Below are positions 42,778-55,006 of a stretch of 59,719 nucleotides of DNA, in pieces. The stretch lies in NCBI GenBank assembly GCA_025355995.1, contig JANXYQ010000050.1, positions 1 to 59,719 on the forward strand. The letters are read 5' to 3'. Under the pieces are notes generated by a model, which ran no database searches, was not told where the DNA came from, and saw nothing but the letters and a program-made list of their open reading frames with translations. Made by a program: the position numbers and the translations under genes. How positions within the stretch are numbered: position 1 is the stretch's first letter; each line of letters starts with the position of its first letter. This DNA comes from Spirochaetaceae bacterium. GTDB lineage: Bacteria; Spirochaetota; Spirochaetia; Treponematales; Rectinemataceae.

Positions 42778-43801
42778 TCGCTTCTCGATCGCTCGCGATC
42801 GCTTCTCAATCGCGACGCCCGACGACTTCCACGCCCACCTGCGCAGGGGAAGCGCGATGGGCGCCTACGCCCGCCGCCACGCGCTCTCCTTCGGCCGAGC
42901 CCTCGCGATGCCCAATACGGTTCCGCCCATCGCGTCGGGGCCCGCCGTCGCGGCCTACCGCGAGGCGATACTGGAAGCGGCGGGCGGGGCGCTGGCCCCC
43001 CTCGCGACCTTCAAGCTCCTGCCCGGCATGAGCGAGGGGACCGTTCGCGCCTGCGCCGCCGCCGGGGCGATCGCCGGCAAGTATTATCCTGCCGGCTCCA
43101 CCACCAACTCCTCCGACGGCCTCCGCGATCCCGCCGAGGCCGAGGCCGCCCTCGGCGCCATGGAGGCGGCGGGGCTCGTCCTCTGCGTCCACGCCGAGGA
43201 CCCCGCCGCGCCGGCGCTCGAGCGGGAGGAGGCCTTCATCCCTGTCCTCGAGCGGATGATCGCCGCCCACCCGAGGCTGCGGATCGTGATCGAGCATGTC
43301 TCCTCGGCGGCGCTCCTCGGCTTCGCGCTCGCCGCGCCCCCCCGGGTGGCCGCCACGGTGACGGCCCACCACCTCCTGTTCACCTTGGACGACCTCATCG
43401 GCGAGGCTATGTCACCCCACCTGTACTGCAAGCCGGTGCCGAAATCGGCGCGGGATCGCGACGCGTTGCGCGACGCCGTCTTCAGGGGGGAGCGCAAGCT
43501 TTTCTTCGGCAGCGATTCCGCGCCCCACCCCAGGTCGGCCAAGGAAGGCGCGCGGGCGGCCGCCGGGATCTACTCCTCGCCGACCGCCGTGGCCGCGCTC
43601 GCCGGCCTCTTCGAATCGGGCGGGGCCCTTGCCGCGCTGGAAGGCTTCCTGTCGATCCGCGGCGCCTCGTTCTACGGCCTGCCCCCGGCCTCCGGCCGTC
43701 TCGAGCTCGCCCGCGGCGAGTGGGTCGTGCCCGAGGAGCTGGACGGGGTCGTGCCGATGCTGGCGGGGAAGAGCCTCTCGTGGAGCTGTTCCAGGACCTA
43801 G
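42770..43801 (+). CDS. pyrC: Dihydroorotase, class II
   Basis: Closes carbamoyl-aspartate to dihydroorotate in pyrimidine synthesis. 343 residues, E. coli PyrC type. Zinc ligands are His21 and His23 (DDFHAHLR), carboxylated Lys104 (AGKYYPAGSTTNS), VHAEDP, IEHVSSAAL, and the base Asp in FGSDSAPHP. The start is TTG 42770, which overlaps the end of the phosphatase gene by 8 bases; no ATG or GTG is usable before the DDFHAH motif. The first 14 residues contain a near-exact repeat (RFSIA twice). It converges on the M24 peptidase with a 4-base overlap. Confidence 0.93.
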   Translation: MTDRFSIARDRFSIATPDDFHAHLRRGSAMGAYARRHALSFGRALAMPNTVPPIASGPAVAAYREAILEAAGGALAPLATFKLLPGMSEGTVRACAAAGAIAGKYYPAGSTTNSSDGLRDPAEAEAALGAMEAAGLVLCVHAEDPAAPALEREEAFIPVLERMIAAHPRLRIVIEHVSSAALLGFALAAPPRVAATVTAHHLLFTLDDLIGEAMSPHLYCKPVPKSARDRDALRDAVFRGERKLFFGSDSAPHPRSAKEGARAAAGIYSSPTAVAALAGLFESGGALAALEGFLSIRGASFYGLPPASGRLELARGEWVVPEELDGVVPMLAGKSLSWSCSRT

Positions 43802-44934
43802 AGCCTGACGATCCTCGACTTGGTCAGCGCCTCGCGCCCGGATTCAGTTATTAACATATCATCCTCGAGCCGGACCCCGCCCAGCTCGGGATGATAGAGG
43901 CCGGGTTCGATCGTGACGATCTGCCCGACCGCAAGGACGTCCGCGCAATCGTCGCGGTTGCGCAGGGCGGGGGCCTCGTGGGCGTCGAGCCCGACCCCGT
44001 GCCCCAGCGCGTGCGGCATGACGAGGCCCGCCTCCGCGAACAGCTCGTCGACATGGAGGGCGACCGCCCGGCAGGAAACCCCGGGCGCGAGCATGGCTAT
44101 GGCCTCGGAGTGCGCCCTCTCGACGAGGGCAATCATCCTCTCGCGCTCCTCGCCGATCCGGCCCCTGGCGAAGCTCATCGTGACGTCGGTGGTGTAGCCC
44201 TCGAGCTTGATCCCGAAGTCGAGGATGGACAGGCCTTCGGTCGCAAAGGGACCGGATCCGTAGGGCGGGAAGGCGTGTATGCCCCAGCTCCGCGACGGTC
44301 CCGCGGCCAGGGTCTCGAAGCCGGGCCCCTCGCAGCCGGCCTCCCTGCTCGCGCGCTCGATGAAGAGCGCCGCGTCGAGCTCGGTTCGGATCCCGCCCGA
44401 GCGGACGCCGGCCTCGATGGCGCCGATGATGTCGTTCGTGATCGCCGAGGCCCGGCGGTAGAGGGCTATCTCGCCCGCGTCCTTGACCGCGCGCAGCCCC
44501 CGCGCGAAGCCGCCGATACCCTCGGCCCGGCAGACGAGGTCGTGGTCGGGCAGGCCCTCGACGAAATCGACGTAGCGAGGGTAGGCGAAGGCCGAGGGGA
44601 GCTCGACCTTCGAGCCGGCCTCGACGCCGAGGCGGGGCAGGAGCTCGGAGAGGGCCCGCATCGGCAGGCGGGAGAAGTCCGAGTAGGGCAGTATCTCGCC
44701 TCCGAAGCCCCCGGGCGCGCCCGCGAGGAGCCTGGCGAGGTTCAGGTCCCAGGCGACGAGGGCGGACCTGCCCTGCGCGGTCACGACGAGGAGGGCGTCG
44801 CCCGGCTGGCCGGTCAGGTACCTTATCGCCTGGTCGCGGCTGCCCTCCGCGTCCTCGAAGAAGGCCGCGGCGATTCCCTCGGACGCGAGACGCACCGCCA
44901 CCCGCGCTACGCGGTCGGCATACCGGGAGCTCAC
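43798..44934 (-). CDS. M24 family metallopeptidase (aminopeptidase P / proline dipeptidase type)
   Basis: 378 residues. N-terminal creatinase-like domain (1-150), then the pita-bread domain with all five metal ligands: two Asp in SILDFGIKLEGYTTDVTMSF, His in HALGHGVGLDAHEAP, Glu in VTIEPGLY, and Glu in GGVRLEDDMLIT. It removes an N-terminal residue before proline. Cytoplasmic, no signal. The start is GTG 44934, overlapping the HEAT gene stop as GTGA, so translation is coupled. It may recycle peptides made by the secreted proteins encoded upstream. Confidence 0.92.
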   Translation of the reverse strand: MSSRYADRVARVAVRLASEGIAAAFFEDAEGSRDQAIRYLTGQPGDALLVVTAQGRSALVAWDLNLARLLAGAPGGFGGEILPYSDFSRLPMRALSELLPRLGVEAGSKVELPSAFAYPRYVDFVEGLPDHDLVCRAEGIGGFARGLRAVKDAGEIALYRRASAITNDIIGAIEAGVRSGGIRTELDAALFIERASREAGCEGPGFETLAAGPSRSWGIHAFPPYGSGPFATEGLSILDFGIKLEGYTTDVTMSFARGRIGEERERMIALVERAHSEAIAMLAPGVSCRAVALHVDELFAEAGLVMPHALGHGVGLDAHEAPALRNRDDCADVLAVGQIVTIEPGLYHPELGGVRLEDDMLITESGREALTKSRIVRL

Positions 44935-46097
44935 TGTATGGCTTTCAATGCGGCCTGGGCCGCGAGTATGACGCCGCCGGACCACTTGTCGTTGAGGGAG
45001 ACCGAGAGCAAGGCGGGCTTCGCGAGCTTGTTCTTCGCGAGTCCCGCGTTCTCGATGGCGGCCTTCGCCATGCGATTGCGCGTGTCGTCGGTCACCCCGG
45101 CCTTCTGATCGGCGTTGAGGGCGAGGATTATGTCCCTGAGGGCGGTCGCGGCCGGGTCGGCGGCGTTGACGCCGAGGGCCTGGAGGGCGATCAGCCTCTC
45201 CTCGTCGTCGAAGCCCTTCTCGTACGAGGCCTGGCAGCCCTCGACCGGACCGGAGCCCTTGGCCTTGTTCGCGATGAGCATGCGAAGGGCGGCCTTGCGC
45301 AGGTCGGAGAGGAGCTTGGCCTCGGCCTTGTCGCGAGGCGAATTCTGGTGGCCTATCGCGAGGGCCAGCGTCGCCGCCTCGATCTTGCGGTCGCCGCTCG
45401 CCTTGGAGGCCGCCTCGGCCTGGAGGGCGCGCAGCTTGCGCTCGGGAGTCTCGGCTCCGAGGATGGCCTTGATGGGGTCGGTGGGGTCCTCGGAGATGTT
45501 TGGCAGGGACTGCGCGGCCTGCTGCCGCACCAGGAGGCTGTACCAGGAATCGGCGGCGAAGAATACGGACGAGAAGCCCCTGACGTCCTTGAGCTTGTCC
45601 AAGGCTACGATGCACCCGTAGGCGAGCTTCTCCCCCATGTCGCGGTCCTCAGTGGGCTTGAGGTTGAGGTCCCTCAGCTTCAGCGCTATGCGCTCGGCGT
45701 AGTCGAGGGCGCGCATCTTGCCGAGGGAGATGATCGCCTCGGCGCGGGCCAGGGGGGCGGGCACGGACTGGGCGGCGTCCCACAGGAAGGGGGCGGCCGC
45801 GGTGTACTTGTAGTCTCCGAGCGCCTTCGCGATCATCCGCACGGTGGTGCCGTACAGCTCCTGGTCGATCGGCGAGGAATAGCTCCTCTGCTGCAGGAGC
45901 AGCTCCTCGAGGGCGGAGGCGAGGACCGGCGCGGTGGCCTTGTCCTCGAGTCCGACGAGATTGACCGCGGCCGCGTACTTCTGGGACAGCCCCTCGGCCT
46001 GCTTGAACAGCATCTGGTATATCTCAGTCGTCTCGTCCGCCACGCCGAGGGCGGCGACGACGAGGGCCAGGTATGCGAAGGCAATAAATCGCTTCAT
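44931..46097 (-). CDS. Secreted HEAT-repeat-like protein
   Basis: 388 residues. A signal peptide covers about residues 1-20 (MKRFIAFAYLALVVAALGVA). The rest is alanine-rich paired helices of HEAT/ARM type (DKATAPVLASALEELLLQQ, DYKYTAAAPFLWDAAQS, RKAALRMLIANKAKG). No catalytic site. Likely a periplasmic scaffold. AGGAG stands 7 bases before ATG 46097, which is better supported than an upstream ATG. It is 17 bases after the lipoprotein gene and overlaps the M24 gene, so the three form an operon. Confidence 0.75.
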   Translation of the reverse strand: MKRFIAFAYLALVVAALGVADETTEIYQMLFKQAEGLSQKYAAAVNLVGLEDKATAPVLASALEELLLQQRSYSSPIDQELYGTTVRMIAKALGDYKYTAAAPFLWDAAQSVPAPLARAEAIISLGKMRALDYAERIALKLRDLNLKPTEDRDMGEKLAYGCIVALDKLKDVRGFSSVFFAADSWYSLLVRQQAAQSLPNISEDPTDPIKAILGAETPERKLRALQAEAASKASGDRKIEAATLALAIGHQNSPRDKAEAKLLSDLRKAALRMLIANKAKGSGPVEGCQASYEKGFDDEERLIALQALGVNAADPAATALRDIILALNADQKAGVTDDTRNRMAKAAIENAGLAKNKLAKPALLSVSLNDKWSGGVILAAQAALKAIQ

Positions 46098-46114
46098 GCG
46101 CGGACTCCTATCTC

Positions 46115-47008
46115 TCACTCGTAATATGTCTCGATCGAGCTGTCCTCGCGGAGCACGTACTCGTAGGTCGAATAAGCTCCGCCCTCTCCTGCGGCGTTGA
46201 ACTCGGCGGCCTTGGCGAGTTCGCCGGAGGGGCCGTAGGCATAGGCCGTCCTGGAGGCGAGGGAGCCGTCCGCGCGGCGCAGCTCCACCGAGGCGAGGAG
46301 GCCGTCCTTATAGGCGTAAGCCTCGAACTTCTGCAGGGCTCCGTCGGCGCCGAAGTAGGAGCGCTTGGCGAGCTTGCCGCCGGCGTACTCCATCCCGATC
46401 GTCCCGGCGGGCTTGCCTCCCGCGTCCTTCATCTCGACTCCAGCCAGGCCGTCGGCTCCGTAGGAATAGGCCGTCGTCGCCCTGGCCGCGCCGGACGCGT
46501 CTAGGGCCCTCCACTCGACCTTGCGGCCCGCGGAATCGTAGGAGTAGGAAGAGGCGGATTGGACCTTCCCCTTCGAGTCGAGCATCCTCTCCTGGGAAAG
46601 GCGTCCCGCAGCGTCGTACGCGAGCTCGCGCCTGCTGCGCAGCTTTCCGTCGGACTCGTAGACGGACTCGGCCGAGAGCCGGCCGTCCTTGTATTCGGAG
46701 AGGGCGCGCTGGACCGGATCGGGCCTCGAACTATCGTAGCTATCCTTCTCGATTACGTACTTTTTCGCCTCGTCGAGCTTGTAGACGGCATATTCGTCCG
46801 GGAGGCCGTCGGCGTAGAACGAGGCTTCCTTGACGAGGATGGGCACTTTCGCAAGCACCGTCCGCTGCTTGGCGACCTTTTCGGGCGTCTTCGCGGCTTC
46901 AGGAGGGGTGGAGGCCGCTGCCGGCGCGGGAGCCTTGGACGCACAGGAGGCAGTGAGGGCGATGGCAATTGCCATTATAAATAATGACCTGAGCAGGGAG
47001 CTCTTCAT
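46115..47008 (-). CDS. Lipoprotein with YD-like repeats
   Basis: 297 residues. The signal peptide ends in a lipobox (ALTASC, Cys near 22). Ala/Pro-rich linker to about 45. From about 60 on there are repeated units of 20-25 residues with the pattern YD/YG-x-x-G-x-L/K-x-x-E (for example AYDAAGRLSQERMLDSKGKV, YSYDSAGRKVEW, AYGPSGELAKA), similar to RHS/YD beta repeats and MORN-like motifs. Probably outer-membrane or inner-membrane anchored, facing the periplasm or outside. GGAGG lies just before ATG 47008. Confidence 0.78.
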   Translation of the reverse strand: MKSSLLRSLFIMAIAIALTASCASKAPAPAAASTPPEAAKTPEKVAKQRTVLAKVPILVKEASFYADGLPDEYAVYKLDEAKKYVIEKDSYDSSRPDPVQRALSEYKDGRLSAESVYESDGKLRSRRELAYDAAGRLSQERMLDSKGKVQSASSYSYDSAGRKVEWRALDASGAARATTAYSYGADGLAGVEMKDAGGKPAGTIGMEYAGGKLAKRSYFGADGALQKFEAYAYKDGLLASVELRRADGSLASRTAYAYGPSGELAKAAEFNAAGEGGAYSTYEYVLREDSSIETYYE

Positions 47009-47109: not shown

Positions 47110-49509
47110 CTAGCGCCTCCCCGCCCTCACAGCCTCTATGAAGCTGGCGGGGTCGATTATCTTCTCGCCGTCGTAGCTACGATATGCACTTGCCTCCATG
47201 AGACCCATTATCGCCTTGGGGCCGAGGGAGGGATCGACCTGCCAACCCAGGGCCAGCACTCCCGCCGCCCAGGGTATTCCCCAGCTTAAGCCCCCGCGGC
47301 CGGTGTATTGCCAGGCCTTCGAGCCGGTCATATAGGCCTCGGCCGTGCTTCGGTACGAGGTCGGCGCGCGGAGGGGGTCTCGCGTCGTGATGCCGCTGTA
47401 GGGCACCCCCGGAAAGCCCGCCTTGCAGACGCGGGGGTTCTCGCGATCCTCGAGGCTGAAGTAGCAGGGGCCGATCAAGCCCTTCTCCTCGGTGCAGTCG
47501 AGGACGAGGATGCCCGCGGCGGTCGCCTTCGCGAAGGCCTGGTCCCAGGCCGCGCCGTTCATCGAGAAAGGGGAGCCCTTGCCCGAGGGCGCCGCGGATA
47601 CCGAAACGACCCGAATGCCCTTCCCCTTAGCCAGCTTCGCGCTCTCGTCGACCATCCAATTGAGAGCGTCCGCGTAGTATTTCGCGTCCCCGTTCCACGA
47701 AGGGACCGCCGCGAAAAAAACGCGGGCGCCGGGGGAGGTCCCGGCCCTTTCCCCGACGAGGAGGCTCAAGACCGCGGGACCGTGCATGCTTCCCTGGTCG
47801 GCCGCCTGACCCGTGCCGAAGTCCTTGTATTTTTCCACCTTGCCGGCGTATTCGGGATGGTCGAGGCCGGGAAGATTCTGGTCGATGATGCCGACGAGGA
47901 CTCCCTCGCCCGTGATGCCTGAGGCATGGAGGGCTCGGACGCCGAGGCCGGGATTGCGGCCCTCCTCGATGACCCGGGCCGCGAGCTTGGCCGAGGGGCC
48001 CGAGAACGTCGCGCTGTCGTTCAGCCACAGCGTCCTGATCAGGCCGAGGTCGTCGGGCGCGTTCACCGGGATCGAGACGAGGCCGGCCATCGCGTCGAAG
48101 GGTGTGAGGCGGACGTCGGCGTAGGGCTTGATGGTCGGATTCGCGCCCGAGGCGCCTGCGCCCCGCGGGACGATGTGTATCTCGGTGACGGCTCCCTCGC
48201 CGATGGCGAATCGTACGCCCGCTTTATTATAGGCGATGGAGGATCCCTCGCGCGAATCCGGCTGCCCGAGCAGGGAAATCACGTCCTTCAAAGGCGTGTC
48301 GACCCTGATCCTTCCCATGAAGCGGAATTTCTGCTCCGGCAGGTAATGATAGCCGTTGATATCGCGGAACACGATCTCGGAGGCCTTTTCGGCACTTCCG
48401 TCGAAAACGAAGACGATGTCTCCGTAGGATGCCTTGATTTCCCGGCCATCGGGCTTCTCGGCTATCTCGATCCGAGTGGGCGCGCCGAGCTTCGCCGCGA
48501 GTTCGCGAAGGCTCAATGAAGGCAAGCTCGCGGAGAACTCTTCCATCGAGGCCTCGACTCTCTCGACGATCGCGTCGAGCTCCTCGGGGCCCTCCGCCGG
48601 AGCATGGTAGTAGGTCCTGACTTCGGATGCCCCTGCGCCGCGCGCGGCCAAAGAATATTTAGCCGCTGAGATTCCCGCCTCCCCGAGGATGCGCGAGTCC
48701 TTCTCGGGCGCGGCACCGGATGGGGCGGGCTCCCCTTCCCCGTCGGAGCGGGCGGGCTTCGCGAGACCGGCTCCGGGCTTGAAGAAATACATCGCGGAGA
48801 CCGCGCCGTCCCAAAAGAAGAAGCGAATTCCCCTGGAAACGTAGGCGATATGCTCGAGGCCGACATTGGAATCGCTGACCTGCAAGACGCCGTCGCCCAA
48901 GTCCGGCCACTCCTGGAAACGAACGGTCGCCCTCGGCTCGCCGAGCATCGCGAAAACCTCCGCCTTCGTGGAGCCGACGCCGATGGACTGCCGGTATCGG
49001 TATTGCGAGGCCGGGCTATAGGTGCCTTGGTCGGCCTCGAACCGGATCTCATCGACCGCATCCCCGTTTTCCAGAAAGAAAAAATGGACCTCCGCGTAGT
49101 AGGCGTTGAAGAAAGTCCTATCGGGGGTCGCGACCACTTCGAGGCGCGTCGGGCTGCCGAAGCTCGTCACCAGGTCGGTCAGGCTCAAGCCGGGCAGGCG
49201 CACCGCCAGGGCCTCGACTTGCGCGTGGACTTTCGCTCCTAATCTCTCCAGCTCCTCCGGGCTCTCGCCCGGAGCGTGGTAGTAGGTCCGCATGTCGTCG
49301 CCGTCGAACTTCCCCAAGCTCATCCGGTAATTGGCCGGCGCGATGCCGGCCTTGAGCAGGACCCGCGCGTCTCCTTCGGAGATCGGCTCGGCCTTTCCTA
49401 TTTGACGCACCTGGCCAAGCTCCTCCCTTCCCCGGCCCGAAAGGCAGCCCGAGGCGATAAGCGAGACGAAGATCGCGGCGAAGGCCATCCCGATACCGGT
49501 TCTGCGCAT
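47110..49509 (-). CDS. Lipid-anchored subtilase (S8) with duplicated N-terminal domains
   Basis: 799 residues. Signal peptide with lipobox (SLIASGC). Two homologous domains follow, about 45-255 and 275-480. Each starts with a (G)I-x-x-A-(K/N)Y motif, then RTYYHAP, a (P/S)EELE or PEELD helix, LPGLSL or LPSLSL, a FG-SPT or LGAPT turn, and ends in GIRFFFWDGAV or GVRFAIGEGAV with an SmpA-like G-(E/Q)P turn. The S8 protease fold is at about 530-790 with Asp543 (GIIDQNLPG), His576 (SMHGPAVLS) and Ser742 (GLSWGIPWA). I prefer ATG 49509 over 49512 because of AGGAGG spacing. Surface or periplasmic protease; substrate unknown. Confidence 0.88.
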   Translation of the reverse strand: MRRTGIGMAFAAIFVSLIASGCLSGRGREELGQVRQIGKAEPISEGDARVLLKAGIAPANYRMSLGKFDGDDMRTYYHAPGESPEELERLGAKVHAQVEALAVRLPGLSLTDLVTSFGSPTRLEVVATPDRTFFNAYYAEVHFFFLENGDAVDEIRFEADQGTYSPASQYRYRQSIGVGSTKAEVFAMLGEPRATVRFQEWPDLGDGVLQVSDSNVGLEHIAYVSRGIRFFFWDGAVSAMYFFKPGAGLAKPARSDGEGEPAPSGAAPEKDSRILGEAGISAAKYSLAARGAGASEVRTYYHAPAEGPEELDAIVERVEASMEEFSASLPSLSLRELAAKLGAPTRIEIAEKPDGREIKASYGDIVFVFDGSAEKASEIVFRDINGYHYLPEQKFRFMGRIRVDTPLKDVISLLGQPDSREGSSIAYNKAGVRFAIGEGAVTEIHIVPRGAGASGANPTIKPYADVRLTPFDAMAGLVSIPVNAPDDLGLIRTLWLNDSATFSGPSAKLAARVIEEGRNPGLGVRALHASGITGEGVLVGIIDQNLPGLDHPEYAGKVEKYKDFGTGQAADQGSMHGPAVLSLLVGERAGTSPGARVFFAAVPSWNGDAKYYADALNWMVDESAKLAKGKGIRVVSVSAAPSGKGSPFSMNGAAWDQAFAKATAAGILVLDCTEEKGLIGPCYFSLEDRENPRVCKAGFPGVPYSGITTRDPLRAPTSYRSTAEAYMTGSKAWQYTGRGGLSWGIPWAAGVLALGWQVDPSLGPKAIMGLMEASAYRSYDGEKIIDPASFIEAVRAGRR

Positions 49510-49551
49510 CATTGCCTCCTCGTGGTCGTAGGGCAGTCTAGCGCGCCGGCA

Positions 49552-51015
49552 TCACGGGCTCGCAACGTCCTCGTAAACGGCCGGTAAATTCGCGAAGGCG
49601 ATCGATACGAGGAGGCCTCCTCCCTCCGGGCGCTCGAAGAGGAGCTCGGCCCCATGGGTCCGGGCTATCTCCTTGCAGATCGCGAGGCCGAGCCCGAAGC
49701 CGCCTTTCCCCGGTTTCCGGCGGAAGGGAGTGCCAGCCGCGGCGATTTCCTCGTCGCTCATCCCCCGCCCGAAATCCCGCACGTAGAGCGTGACCGAGCC
49801 CTCGGATCTCTCGCATCCGGCCAGGATCCGGGCGCCCGGGGCGGAGGCGTGGATCGAGTTCTCGAGGAGGTTGCGCAGGGCCAAGGCCATAAGGCTCCGA
49901 TCGCAGCGGATCGAGCCCCCCGCAGGCCCGACCTCGATGGTCAGGCCCGCGGAATCGTCCCTCGAGCGGGCCTCGTCAGCCGCGTCGCGCAGGAGGCCCG
50001 CGACCTCCACCTCCTCCATCGAGCGCGCCGCGCTCCTCGCGACGAGGAGGCGCTTGAGGCTCTCGGTCAGGTCGAGGATCCGGCGCCCCTCCGCCTCTAT
50101 CCTCGCGAGGCCGTCTCGGTAGGATGCTTCGTCGTAGGCGCTCGCCTGGAGGAGCTCCGCGAAGCCTACGATCGACGTCACCGGCGTACGAAGCTCGTGG
50201 GTGAGATTGTCGACGAATGCCTGTCGGTCAGCCTTCTCGGCCTCGAGCCTCTCCACCTTGTCTCGGATCGAGTCGGACATGCGATTGAAGCTGGCGGCCA
50301 GCGTAGCCGCCTCGTCCGCGCCTCCCTCGTCCGCCCGGGTCCCGTAATCGCCCCCGGCCAGGAGGGCGGAGCCTCGAGCTAGCTCCTCGAGCCGCCGGGA
50401 GAGGGCGCGGCTGAGCAGGTACGAGCCCCCGGAGAGGAGGGCCGCGGCGAGGGCGCTCGAGAGGCCGAGGAGGGCCAGCTGCCTCCGGGTGAATAGGTCC
50501 AGCGTCTCCATGCCCGTCGCGAGGCTCGCTACGACATCGACGCCGCCGATGCGGAGCGGGGCCGAATAGAAGAGGGCGAGCCTGCCGTCGATCCTTCTCA
50601 GCAGGTAGGAGGGCCCGAGCCGGGCGGCCGCCTCGGCCTCGGGCCTCTCCCGCCTCCCGGCCGCCGCGAGAAGCTCGCCGGCGGCGAAGAGCCCCTCGCC
50701 TCCGGGGAGGCGCAGCTCGACCTCGGCTCCCGACCTGAGGATGCCCGCGCCTCCGCCCCGCAGGAAGGACCGCAGGGAGGCCAGCGAACCCCTCGGGAGC
50801 GGGGAGCCGGAGGAGAATGACTCATCGAGATCGCGCATCGCGTTCCAGGCTCCGTCCAGGGCCGCCGCGATGCGGCCGCACTCGCGCGTCAGGCTCGCCA
50901 GGCTCGCGTCCATGAGGCTCTTCCTTCCCGAGGCGAGGCTCATGGCGCCCATGAAGGCGATGGCCGCCATGGCGGTCGCCGTGGAGAGCAGGAAGACCTC
51001 TGTCCGGAGCTTCAA
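49552..51015 (-). CDS. Sensor histidine kinase
   Basis: 487 residues. Two spans at about 8-28 and 172-195 flank a periplasmic domain of about 140 residues. HAMP follows, then HisKA with the phospho-acceptor in DNLTHELRTPVTSIVGFAEL (His near 271), and HATPase with LRNLLENSIHAS, DFGRGMSDEE and KGGFGLGLAI. The start is TTG 51015, 4 bases after the stop of the response regulator gene. The partner is that regulator. The subtilase lipoprotein starts 42 bases after its end and is a likely target, inferred from position. Confidence 0.93.
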   Translation of the reverse strand: MKLRTEVFLLSTATAMAAIAFMGAMSLASGRKSLMDASLASLTRECGRIAAALDGAWNAMRDLDESFSSGSPLPRGSLASLRSFLRGGGAGILRSGAEVELRLPGGEGLFAAGELLAAAGRRERPEAEAAARLGPSYLLRRIDGRLALFYSAPLRIGGVDVVASLATGMETLDLFTRRQLALLGLSSALAAALLSGGSYLLSRALSRRLEELARGSALLAGGDYGTRADEGGADEAATLAASFNRMSDSIRDKVERLEAEKADRQAFVDNLTHELRTPVTSIVGFAELLQASAYDEASYRDGLARIEAEGRRILDLTESLKRLLVARSAARSMEEVEVAGLLRDAADEARSRDDSAGLTIEVGPAGGSIRCDRSLMALALRNLLENSIHASAPGARILAGCERSEGSVTLYVRDFGRGMSDEEIAAAGTPFRRKPGKGGFGLGLAICKEIARTHGAELLFERPEGGGLLVSIAFANLPAVYEDVASP

Positions 51016-51019
51016 GCGA

Positions 51020-51664
51020 TCAGCCCTCGAGGCGGTAGCCGATGCCCGGCACCGTCCGTATCGCCTCCGTCCCGAGCTTCTCGCGCAGCCTCTGCACGTG
51101 GACGTCGACGGTTCGCGTCTCGCAGGAGGCTTCGTAGCCCCAAGCCAGGGCGAGCAGCCTGTCGCGGGAGAGCGCGATCCCCTTATGCTCGGCGAGGCTC
51201 AAGAGCAGGTCGAATTCGCGCCGCGTCAGGTCGATCCCGATACCGCCTACCCGCACGATCCTACCCTCTATGTCGATGTCGATGCCGGCCACGCATAGCC
51301 TTCTCTCGTCTCGGGAATGCCGCCTGAGGATGGCCCGCACCCTCGCGATCAGCTCCAGCGCCTCGAAGGGCTTAGTTATATAATCCTCGGCCCCCGCGTC
51401 GAGTCCTCCGACCTTGTCCATGAGCGAGTCCCGAGCGCTCAGGATGAGGACCGGGATGCCCTCGGCGCGTATCGCGGGAACGAGCCGAAGGCCGGGAGCG
51501 TCGGGCAAGCCCAGGTCGAGGATGGCGAGGGCGACGCCTTCGAGGGACGCCAGGCCCAGGGCTGCGGTCGGCGCCGCCGCGACCTCGAATCCTACGGTGC
51601 CGAGGCTCAAGGCCACCAGTTCGGCGATGGAGGGATCGTCTTCTATTACGAGGATTTTTGTCAT
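51020..51664 (-). CDS. OmpR-family response regulator
   Basis: 214 residues. Receiver at 1-115 with VIEDDPSIAEL, phospho-Asp50 (LAILDLGLPDAPG) and YITKPFEALEL. Winged helix at 120-214 ending IRTVPGIGYRLEG. The closing GYRLEG is typical of PhoB/OmpR regulators. No ribosome binding site before ATG 51664. A TTGCTT-19-TACTCT pair ends 5 bases before the start, so the transcript may be leaderless. Forms a two-component pair with the kinase gene that follows. Confidence 0.94.
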   Translation of the reverse strand: MTKILVIEDDPSIAELVALSLGTVGFEVAAAPTAALGLASLEGVALAILDLGLPDAPGLRLVPAIRAEGIPVLILSARDSLMDKVGGLDAGAEDYITKPFEALELIARVRAILRRHSRDERRLCVAGIDIDIEGRIVRVGGIGIDLTRREFDLLLSLAEHKGIALSRDRLLALAWGYEASCETRTVDVHVQRLREKLGTEAIRTVPGIGYRLEG

Positions 51665-51708: not shown

Positions 51709-52875
51709 CTATATCTCTTTCCCCGCCGCGTCCAGCGCGTCCTTCAGCAGGCCGAGGCCTCGATCGATCTCGCCATCCGGGATCACGAGGGGCGGCAGGA
51801 GCCGCACGACGTCGCTTCCCGCGGTGAGGACCAGGAGGCCTCTCTCGAGGCAGAGCTCCTTGACGCGGTCCGGCGGGCAGGTCACGGCGATGCCGATCAT
51901 GAGGCCGCGCCCGCGCGCTTCCTTCACGAGGTTATGCTTCCAGGAGCGGACGGCCTCTAGGAAGCGCTCGCCCTTCCCGGCCACGGCGTCGAGGAAGCCG
52001 GCCGAGCCGAGCTCGCTCAGGACGACGCGCGCGGCGGCCGCGGCGAGGGGATTCCCGCCGAAGGTGGAGCCGTGGTCGCCGCGCTCGAGCACGCGCGCGG
52101 CTTCGCCGCGGGCGAGCACTGCCCCTATGGGCACGCCGCCCGCCAGGCCCTTGGCCAGGGTGACCACGTCCGGCCGCACGCCGGCGCGGCTCGACGCGAG
52201 GAAGCTCCCGGTCCGCCCGACGCCGCATTGGACCTCGTCGGCGATGAGGAGGATGCCGCGCTCCTCGCAGAGCCTGGCCGCGAGCCTCTGGTACTCGTCG
52301 CTGAGGGGCACGACGCCGCTCTCTCCCTGTATCGGCTCGAGGAGGAGGGCGCAGGTCCCGCTCCCGAGCGCGGCGTCCAGGGCCGCGGAGTCCTCGGCCT
52401 CCACGTATTCGAAGCCTGCGGGGAAGGGCCCGAAGCGCTCGTGGAATTTGTCCTGCCCCGTCGCCGCCAGGGTGGCGATGGTCCGGCCGTGGAAGGAGCC
52501 GCGCAGGGTCACCACGGTGGTCCTCGACGCGTCGTGCGACGCGCCGTGCTTGCGCGCGATCTTGATCGCGCCCTCGTTGGCCTCGGCCCCCGAGTTGCAG
52601 AGGAAGACCGCGTCCATGCCCGTGCGCGCGCAGAGCTCCTGCGCCAGCTCGAGGGCCTCGCGGCTCTGGTAGTAGTTGGAGACGTGGATGAGGCGCGCGG
52701 CCTGCTCCGCGATGGCCGCGACGAGCCTCGGATGGCCGTGCCCTAGGCTGTTCACGCCGATCCCGCTCGCGAAGTCGAGGTACTTCCTGCCGTCCTCGGC
52801 CTCGAGCACGACCCCGGAGCCCCGGACGAAGACGAGCCCCGTCCGCTTGTAGGTGTCCATCAGCATGTCGCTCAC
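51709..52875 (-). CDS. argD: Acetylornithine aminotransferase
   Basis: PLP enzyme converting N-acetylglutamate semialdehyde to N-acetylornithine. 388 residues. FASGIGVNSLGHGHPRLV, FLCNSGAEANEGAIKIAR, SFHGRTIATLAATGQ, LLIADEVQCGVGRTGSFLA and the PLP lysine in VVTLAKGLAGGVPIGAV are all standard. It starts at GTG 52875, overlapping the argB stop as GTGA. Last gene of the arg operon in this window. Confidence 0.95.
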   Translation of the reverse strand: MSDMLMDTYKRTGLVFVRGSGVVLEAEDGRKYLDFASGIGVNSLGHGHPRLVAAIAEQAARLIHVSNYYQSREALELAQELCARTGMDAVFLCNSGAEANEGAIKIARKHGASHDASRTTVVTLRGSFHGRTIATLAATGQDKFHERFGPFPAGFEYVEAEDSAALDAALGSGTCALLLEPIQGESGVVPLSDEYQRLAARLCEERGILLIADEVQCGVGRTGSFLASSRAGVRPDVVTLAKGLAGGVPIGAVLARGEAARVLERGDHGSTFGGNPLAAAAARVVLSELGSAGFLDAVAGKGERFLEAVRSWKHNLVKEARGRGLMIGIAVTCPPDRVKELCLERGLLVLTAGSDVVRLLPPLVIPDGEIDRGLGLLKDALDAAGKEI

Positions 52876-53756
52876 GATATCATCGTCCCTACGCCGGCGT
52901 CGCTGAAGAGCTCGACGAGGAGGGAGTGCGGAGAGCGCCCGTCGATGATGTGCGCCCGGCCGACGCCCCCGTCCACCGCCCTCGCGCAGCACTCGACCTT
53001 CGGTATCATTCCCTTGGACACGATTCCCCCCTTCACGTAGTCGTCCAGCTCGGATCGGCGGATCTCCTTGATAAGGGTGCCGTCGTCCCGGAGGTCCCGC
53101 AGTATGCCGGGCACGTCGGTGAGCAGCAGGAGCTTCTCCGCGCCGAGGGCGATGGCTATGTCCGCCGCGGCCGTGTCCGCGTTCACGTTGTACGACTTGG
53201 GGTCGCTGCCGACGCCTCCGGCCACGGTGGCGACCACGGGCACGAAGCCGCCGCCGAGCGCCGCCTCCAGGACCTCGACCCTGACCTCGACTATCTCGCC
53301 GACCAGGCCTAGATCGGCCCCGGGCGAGCCGTCGGGGCCGGCCTTGCTCCGGCGCTCCGCGGCGAGGAGGCCTCCGTCCAGGCCGCAGAGCCCGAGGGCC
53401 CTGCCGCCCGCGCGCTGGATCAGCCCGACGAGCTCCTTGTTCACCTTGCCGGCGAGGACCATCTGCACGACTTCCATCGTCTCCTCGTCGGTGTAGCGCA
53501 GGCCCCCGATGAAGACCGGCTCCTTGCCGAGGCGGCGCAGCATCGCGTCTATCTCCGGCCCGCCGCCGTGCACGAGGACCGTGCGGATCCCGACGCAGCT
53601 CATGAGGACGAGGTCCTCGGCCACCGCGGCGCGCAGCGACTCGTTGACCATGGCCGCCCCGCCGTACTTCACGACGATGGTCTTGCCCCGGTAGCGCTGG
53701 ATGTAGGGCAGGGCCTGCGCGAGTATGGCCGCCTTGTCGTTGACCGAAATGCCCAT
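52872..53756 (-). CDS. argB: N-acetylglutamate kinase
   Basis: Phosphorylates N-acetylglutamate. 294 residues. TIVVKYGGAAM, VLVHGGGPEIDAML, YNVNADTAAADIAIALGAEK and GGIVSKGMIPKVECC are family motifs. An N-terminal helix (DKAAILAQALPYIQRY) is present, as in arginine-inhibited hexameric enzymes, so feedback by arginine is likely. AGGAG stands 7 bases before ATG 53756. It lies 23 bases after argJ. Confidence 0.96.
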   Translation of the reverse strand: MGISVNDKAAILAQALPYIQRYRGKTIVVKYGGAAMVNESLRAAVAEDLVLMSCVGIRTVLVHGGGPEIDAMLRRLGKEPVFIGGLRYTDEETMEVVQMVLAGKVNKELVGLIQRAGGRALGLCGLDGGLLAAERRSKAGPDGSPGADLGLVGEIVEVRVEVLEAALGGGFVPVVATVAGGVGSDPKSYNVNADTAAADIAIALGAEKLLLLTDVPGILRDLRDDGTLIKEIRRSELDDYVKGGIVSKGMIPKVECCARAVDGGVGRAHIIDGRSPHSLLVELFSDAGVGTMIS

Positions 53757-53779
53757 GCGTATCTCCTGGCTTCCTATTC

Positions 53780-55006
53780 TCAAGTCCTGTAGTCGCCGTT
53801 GATGCGGACGTACTCGTAGCTGAGGTCGCAGCCCCAGGCGGTAGCCTGCCCGCCGCCCTCGGGGCGGCCGCCGAGGTCGACGAGGATGGTCACCTCCTGG
53901 GCGCCGAGCACGAGCTTGGCCTTCTCCTCGCTGAATGGTATTCCCGCGCCGTCTACGCAGACCTCGAGGTAGCCGCGCGGGCTCTCGAAGGCGAGGCGCA
54001 CCTTGTTCGGATCGAAGGCCGATGGCGCGTAGCCGAGGGCGCAGAGCACCCGGCCCCAGTTCGCGTCGGAGCCGAAGAGGGCGGTCTTGACCAGGCTCGA
54101 GGTGATGACCGATTTGGCCAGGGCCTCCGCCGCCTCCTCGCTCGCGGCTCCGGTCACGACGCACTCGACTAGTTTGGTGGCCCCCTCGCCGTCGCGGGCT
54201 ATCATCTTGGCCATCTGGGTGTCGACGTAGTCGAGGGCCTCCGCGAAGGCCCGGTAGTCCGCGCCGCGCTCCTCGATCGGCGCGTTCCCCGCCATGCCGT
54301 TCGCGAGGAGCACGACCATGTCGTTCGTGCTCGTGTCGCCGTCCACGCTCACCCGGTTGTAGGTCCGCCTAACGCTCTCGGAGAGGGCCTCCTGGAGAAG
54401 CCCGCTCGAAATCGCGCAATCCGTGGTGACGAAGCCCAGCATCGTGGCCATGTTCGGGTGGATCATCCCCGAGCCCTTGGCCATGGCGCCTATCGTCACG
54501 GTCTTGCCGCCGAGCTCCACGCTGACGGCGAGCTCCTTCTTCATCGTGTCCGTGGTGAGGATGGCCTCCCGGGCGTCGATGGAGCCGGCCTTGGACAGCG
54601 CGGCGACGAGGGCCTCCATTCCGGCCTCTATAGGCGACACGTCCAGCTGGACGCCGATGACGCCGGTGGACGCGACCACCACGTCCTCGGGCTTGACAGG
54701 GAGCCGCTCGGCGACGAGGGCCGCCATGCGCTTCGCCGCTATGATGCCCGCCTCGCCGGTACAGGTGTTGGCGTTGCCAGAGTTGACGATCACCGCCTGG
54801 GCATGGCCGTCGGCGAGGTGCTCCTTCGTGACAACGAGGGGCTGGCCTATGACCTTGTTGCGGGTGTAGCAGGCCGCGGCCGTGCAGCGCTCCTGGGACC
54901 AGATAAGGGCGAGGTCCTTCTTGTCGCCGGTCTTCTTGATCCCGACCCGTATGCCGGACGCCTTGAATCCCTCGGGGGCGGTGACCCCGCCGCGCAGTTC
55001 CTTCAT
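53780..55006 (-). CDS. argJ: Bifunctional ornithine acetyltransferase / N-acetylglutamate synthase
   Basis: Moves the acetyl group from acetylornithine to glutamate, so the acetyl cycle needs no separate ArgE, and may make acetylglutamate from acetyl-CoA. 408 residues. Self-cleavage and catalysis occur at Thr188 in KGSGMIHPNMATML. NSGNANTCTGEAG and SVDGDTSTNDMV are also seen. It lies 21 bases after argC. No argA or argE is present here, which fits. Confidence 0.96.
   Translation of the reverse strand: MKELRGGVTAPEGFKASGIRVGIKKTGDKKDLALIWSQERCTAAACYTRNKVIGQPLVVTKEHLADGHAQAVIVNSGNANTCTGEAGIIAAKRMAALVAERLPVKPEDVVVASTGVIGVQLDVSPIEAGMEALVAALSKAGSIDAREAILTTDTMKKELAVSVELGGKTVTIGAMAKGSGMIHPNMATMLGFVTTDCAISSGLLQEALSESVRRTYNRVSVDGDTSTNDMVVLLANGMAGNAPIEERGADYRAFAEALDYVDTQMAKMIARDGEGATKLVECVVTGAASEEAAEALAKSVITSSLVKTALFGSDANWGRVLCALGYAPSAFDPNKVRLAFESPRGYLEVCVDGAGIPFSEEKAKLVLGAQEVTILVDLGGRPEGGGQATAWGCDLSYEYVRINGDYRT

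Follow-up and report, generated by a model that had tools for sequence, protein, structure and literature searches.

The window, a stretch of 59,719 nucleotides from a Spirochaetaceae bacterium, carries a gene for a lipid-anchored protein of 800 amino acids in which a duplicated N-terminal domain precedes a divergent subtilase (S8) domain. The parts are of known kinds; as judged from sequence searches, the S8 branch is divergent, and the collections searched yielded no second example of the combination. The divergent subtilase, the domain pair and an insertion shared with a two-component system suggest a regulated protease in a combination not described before. The preferred reading, with a probability of roughly 0.4, is that of a lipid-anchored envelope subtilase controlled by the two-component system, where the S8 domain would be presented with a partner protein or substrate bound by BLIP-like pairs.

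The gene starts with ATG and occupies 47110..49512 on the minus strand (open reading frame reading, Pfam scan and BLASTP); the plus-strand frame at the same positions is interrupted. All parts of the protein named below are on the minus strand. The signal-peptide end and lipobox (residues 19-23, 49444..49458) are evident by direct reading: the lipobox LIASGC follows the signal peptide, and Cys23 is the putative lipidated residue. Sequence alignment places copy 1 of the N-terminal domain at residues 46-249 (48766..49377) and copy 2 at residues 270-453 (48154..48705). A linker (residues 454-515, 47968..48153) leads to the divergent S8 catalytic domain at residues 516-800 (47113..47967; Pfam and alignments).

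The two copies are 34% identical over 205 aligned positions (BLASTP, 112 bits, E 3e-35), and the repeat is therefore not due to chance. Motifs fall in register: RTYYHAP starts at residues 75 and 299 (75-81, 49270..49290, and 299-305, 48598..48618, from the alignment of the copies), PEEL at 85 and 309, and LPGLSL/LPSLSL at 106 and 330. RTYYHAP is identical in both copies although overall identity is 34-38%. The initial annotation had described two domains of about 200 residues with matching motifs, and every motif it named was found. The S8 protein that it proposed, lipid-anchored and with its N-terminal domain duplicated, is real.

What is the repeated domain? In Pfam profile searches, no curated family matched it above the family's own cut-off. 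DUF4309 (PF14172) matched copy 1 at E 0.06-0.12 (13.6 bits, cut-off 25), and DUF7738 matched copy 2 in two stretches at E 0.0054 (17.6 bits, cut-off 24.6); since both scores lie below the cut-off, the domain is assigned to neither family. An AlphaFold2 model (m0f47db34b431) of the 132-residue core of copy 2, built from an alignment of just two sequences, the second being copy 1, has pLDDT 75.6 and pTM 0.68 and depicts the core as two alpha/beta units, both with an E-H-E-E-E-E pattern; the whole protein modelled from one sequence reached a pLDDT of only 34. The predicted units of copy 2 are 2a (residues 322-388, 48349..48549) and 2b (residues 389-453, 48154..48348), and their homologues in copy 1 are 1a (residues 98-163, 49024..49221) and 1b (residues 164-249, 48766..49023). 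Units a and b within one copy are weakly alike by hhalign (E 0.002) and do not match by BLASTP.

When the copy-2 core model was compared with 350,542 PDB chains by Foldseek and VIA-align, BLIP-like folds recurred among the matches: 3d4e, a putative beta-lactamase inhibitor protein (Foldseek E 0.055, prob 0.92; VIA-align Z 4.5, 98 aligned, rmsd 7.4), 4ygt, the DUF4309 protein YjgB (Foldseek E 0.15; VIA-align Z 4.2, 78 aligned, rmsd 4.3), 4dm5, OsmE (VIA-align Z 4.2, 56 aligned, rmsd 2.6) and 2qzb, YfeY (VIA-align Z 4.1, 58 aligned, rmsd 2.5). These matches are weak, none reaching E 0.001, and their Z values lie within the range attained by unrelated folds as well. Mucin/VWF D domains match the model equally (Z 4.0-4.2), and the best-ranked Foldseek row, TagH, lies outside the BLIP-like set. 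With weak matches and mucin/VWF domains scoring alike, a BLIP-like fold of the repeated units is probable and is put no higher. On the model, the protein probably has four BLIP-like units, arranged as two pairs, ahead of the protease.

A search of the phylum with DUF4309 led to a protein in Treponema-like genomes that has the same two-unit pattern in its C-terminal ~130 residues. It aligns collinearly with the window domains (E 0.0037), and its family profile matches them at E 0.00038 with a score of 28.8, the best of 200 column shuffles being 20.1. The profile that gathered the Treponema-like members already included the window domains and one such member, so that the member count of this family is no independent proof. 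The model and these sequence matches point tentatively to membership in the BLIP/SmpA-OmlA/DUF4309 superfamily. The initial annotation had called the domain unrecognised and proposed a profile search and a structure prediction; these gave sub-threshold Pfam matches and weak BLIP-like matches of the copy-2 core model. The description is apt in that no family exceeds its cut-off, but fold and sub-threshold matches indicate DUF4309/BLIP/SmpA. The Treponema-like loci (L040-L052) encode a protein of ~600-630 amino acids with one BLIP/DUF4309-like pair at the C-terminus. On our reading alone, its N-terminal half resembles a degenerate M48 peptidase without HExxH, for which no Pfam or PDB sequence match was found.

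A structural study united BLIP, SmpA_OmlA, DUF2874, PepSY and DUF3192 in one superfamily, whose members are proposed to bind a partner domain, carried either by the same chain or by another protein, and often to inhibit it; PepSY, which typically occurs in fusion with M4 or M36 peptidases, is postulated to inhibit the fused peptidase (PMC2954215). On the model, the window protein would share with BLIP, SmpA-OmlA, DUF2874 and PepSY the tandem alpha/beta units, short helix, antiparallel sheet and envelope location; it differs in that two pairs are fused to S8, no family is over its cut-off, and the domains begin with an additional conserved segment that includes RTYYHAP. With DUF4309 (YjgB) there are a sub-threshold sequence match, a weak fold match and the collinear two-unit relative, but the window domain remains under the Pfam cut-off. 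The initial annotation had suggested a target-binding or inhibitory role for the N-terminal pair. By analogy with the superfamily this guess is reasonable, and it would fit the BLIP-like fold that the model suggests.

Could the pairs inhibit the very protease that carries them? In this main rival reading, which we consider unlikely, they would be cis-inhibitors that cover the active site, are displaced or cleaved for activation and take the place of an I9 propeptide. The Pfam scan found no I9 match in the linker or elsewhere in the 800-residue protein, PepSY of the same superfamily sets a precedent for inhibition of a fused peptidase (PMC2954215), and the Treponema denticola protease PrtP sheds an N-terminal part on activation (PMC8167434). 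However, one active site needs fewer than two copies with the same motifs, no processing site was identified, and the fold itself is insecure. Two copies with identical motifs would slightly favour ligand binding. PrtP (dentilisin) is, like the window protein, an acylated subtilase, but the two differ in their N-terminal parts (PMC8167434). Of its prcB-prcA-prtP operon, neither prcB nor prcA was recognised in the window, where the neighbours are a response regulator, a histidine kinase and a YD-repeat lipoprotein.

The S8 domain matches PF00082 (Peptidase S8) at 27 bits (cut-off 21.8) over residues 535-670 only, so that just the front half of the profile is covered. When the domain is aligned with annotated S8 peptidases and with subtilisin BPN', the triad falls in order on Asp544 (47881..47883), His577 (47782..47784) and Ser743 (47284..47286, in GLSWGIP). 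The same three residues had been picked out before as Asp543, His576 and Ser742; they are on the triad columns, but that numbering is one low. To call the protease complete, as the initial annotation did, is too strong: where subtilisin has its oxyanion-hole Asn155, two alignments show Glu676 (47485..47487; ILVLDCTEEKG against ILVVAAAGNEG), and an alternative hhalign path puts Leu679 there, likewise not Asn. As the oxyanion-hole Asn is absent, the domain is assigned to the S8 fold without being counted among the active members. A disulfide could form among Cys673, Cys683 and Cys696 (47425-47496), which lie around this non-canonical oxyanion region.

Of 129 genomes examined by a six-frame scan, 34 had S8 matches, most of them with scores of 100-209 bits; the window protein scored 20.9 bits, and its own genome has no other S8 match. 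With its S8 region as query, no other sequence in 393 genomes of the phylum reached E 0.001. On these scores the relatives' S8 proteins, which are canonical in motif and not close to the window protein, are not its orthologues; the N-terminal domain was not found in the 17 of them examined. We suspect a similar S8 subfamily in Firmicutes, presumably sharing the motifs DQ-x-L, MHGPAV and GGLSW-x-IP. Being a strong outlier among S8 domains and having no Asn at the oxyanion-hole position, the domain is of uncertain protease activity. These two features would also suit a catalytically dead or nearly dead S8 domain in a protein that serves the kinase as a sensor or binding lipoprotein. That reading is a serious alternative, if less likely still than cis-inhibition; against it, the whole triad is kept in recognisable motifs, which would be unlikely for a decaying enzyme.

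The neighbours are as first described: a two-component system on one side, and a lipoprotein, a HEAT protein and an M24 peptidase on the other (Pfam). The former consists of a response regulator with winged-helix output (51020..51664, minus strand) and a histidine kinase with HAMP, HisKA and HATPase domains (49552..51015, minus strand), both located within the insertion by Pfam and locus comparison. The latter are a YD-repeat lipoprotein (46115-47008, Pfam), a HEAT-like protein (44931-46118, sub-threshold Pfam match) and an M24 peptidase (43798-44940, Pfam); this block (43798-47008) is kept across the family, in relatives without the protease. In two relatives (G004 and G005), the YD-repeat lipoprotein, HEAT and M24 genes come straight after argD, and 186 bases separate the argD and lipoprotein frames in G005; in the window, the response regulator, kinase and protease genes sit between argD and the block. 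The protease is absent from 59 relatives, among which there was one 43-residue S8 match, and in 20 relatives the kinase finds similarity of the general kinase kind only (best E 4e-23). With argD adjoining the block in two relatives and none of the 59 carrying the protease, the three genes are an added unit, an accessory insertion seen in this genome only. In a genus mate (G001, 79% complete), the 9 kb examined do not show argD beside the block. The arginine biosynthesis genes argD, argB and argJ (51709-55006) lie immediately upstream of the insertion. The GC3 of the module is 0.82-0.88, that of the neighbours 0.83-0.94, and in composition the DNA does not stand out clearly as foreign. Promoter and terminator scans were uninformative.

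As the insertion is seen only here, the two-component system is likely to be the protease's partner, and the lipoprotein, HEAT and M24 genes downstream are likely not. The three-gene unit does not prove regulation of the protease by its two-component system. In the preferred reading of a substrate-presenting envelope subtilase, the two-component system encoded just upstream would control production of the protease, and the lipid anchor would hold it at the envelope, with two tandem BLIP/SmpA-like pairs between anchor and S8 domain. Near the membrane, the beta-sheet faces of the pairs would bind a partner protein or substrate; the two copies, having kept the same motifs, would take the same kind of ligand, and the pairs would present the bound protein to the S8 domain. 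Partner binding, two-component control and protease activity are what we infer. That the pairs, located between lipid anchor and enzyme, are a mere stalk keeping the protease off the membrane is highly improbable, as a spacer needs less than an RTYYHAP motif identical in copies so diverged. A fuller proposal, that a divergent subtilase with a changed oxyanion hole is held or aimed in cis by four BLIP-like units and moved together with its own two-component system as a new kind of regulated surface protease, is quite doubtful, more so than a dead S8 domain. If the preferred reading is right, a serine protease would have BLIP-like inhibitor or binding modules acting on it in cis, an extension of what PepSY-metallopeptidase fusions show, and the S8 fusion would be a further case of a module of this superfamily joined to a peptidase. 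A subtilase might then function without the classical oxyanion Asn, and the three genes would make up a compact sensor-protease unit.

Does the same architecture occur elsewhere? No homologue of the whole protein was found in genome contigs by two peptide-pattern scans; these reach close relatives only, and the absence is thus weak evidence. Viral contigs, PADLOC and PHROGs likewise gave no homologue, and plasmids and phages gave generic S8 or chance matches only. Among the papers listed on DUF4309, BLIP-like proteases and spirochaete subtilases, none described the architecture. One match taken up as a possible relative (G302) was spurious and is a MurE-like protein. The copy-2 core model also matches, weakly, the CAP/SCP proteins 4ifa and 4h0a (Z 3.3 and 4.4), in which we take an extracellular domain to follow a BLIP-like N-terminal module; that domain is CAP in these proteins and S8 in the window protein.
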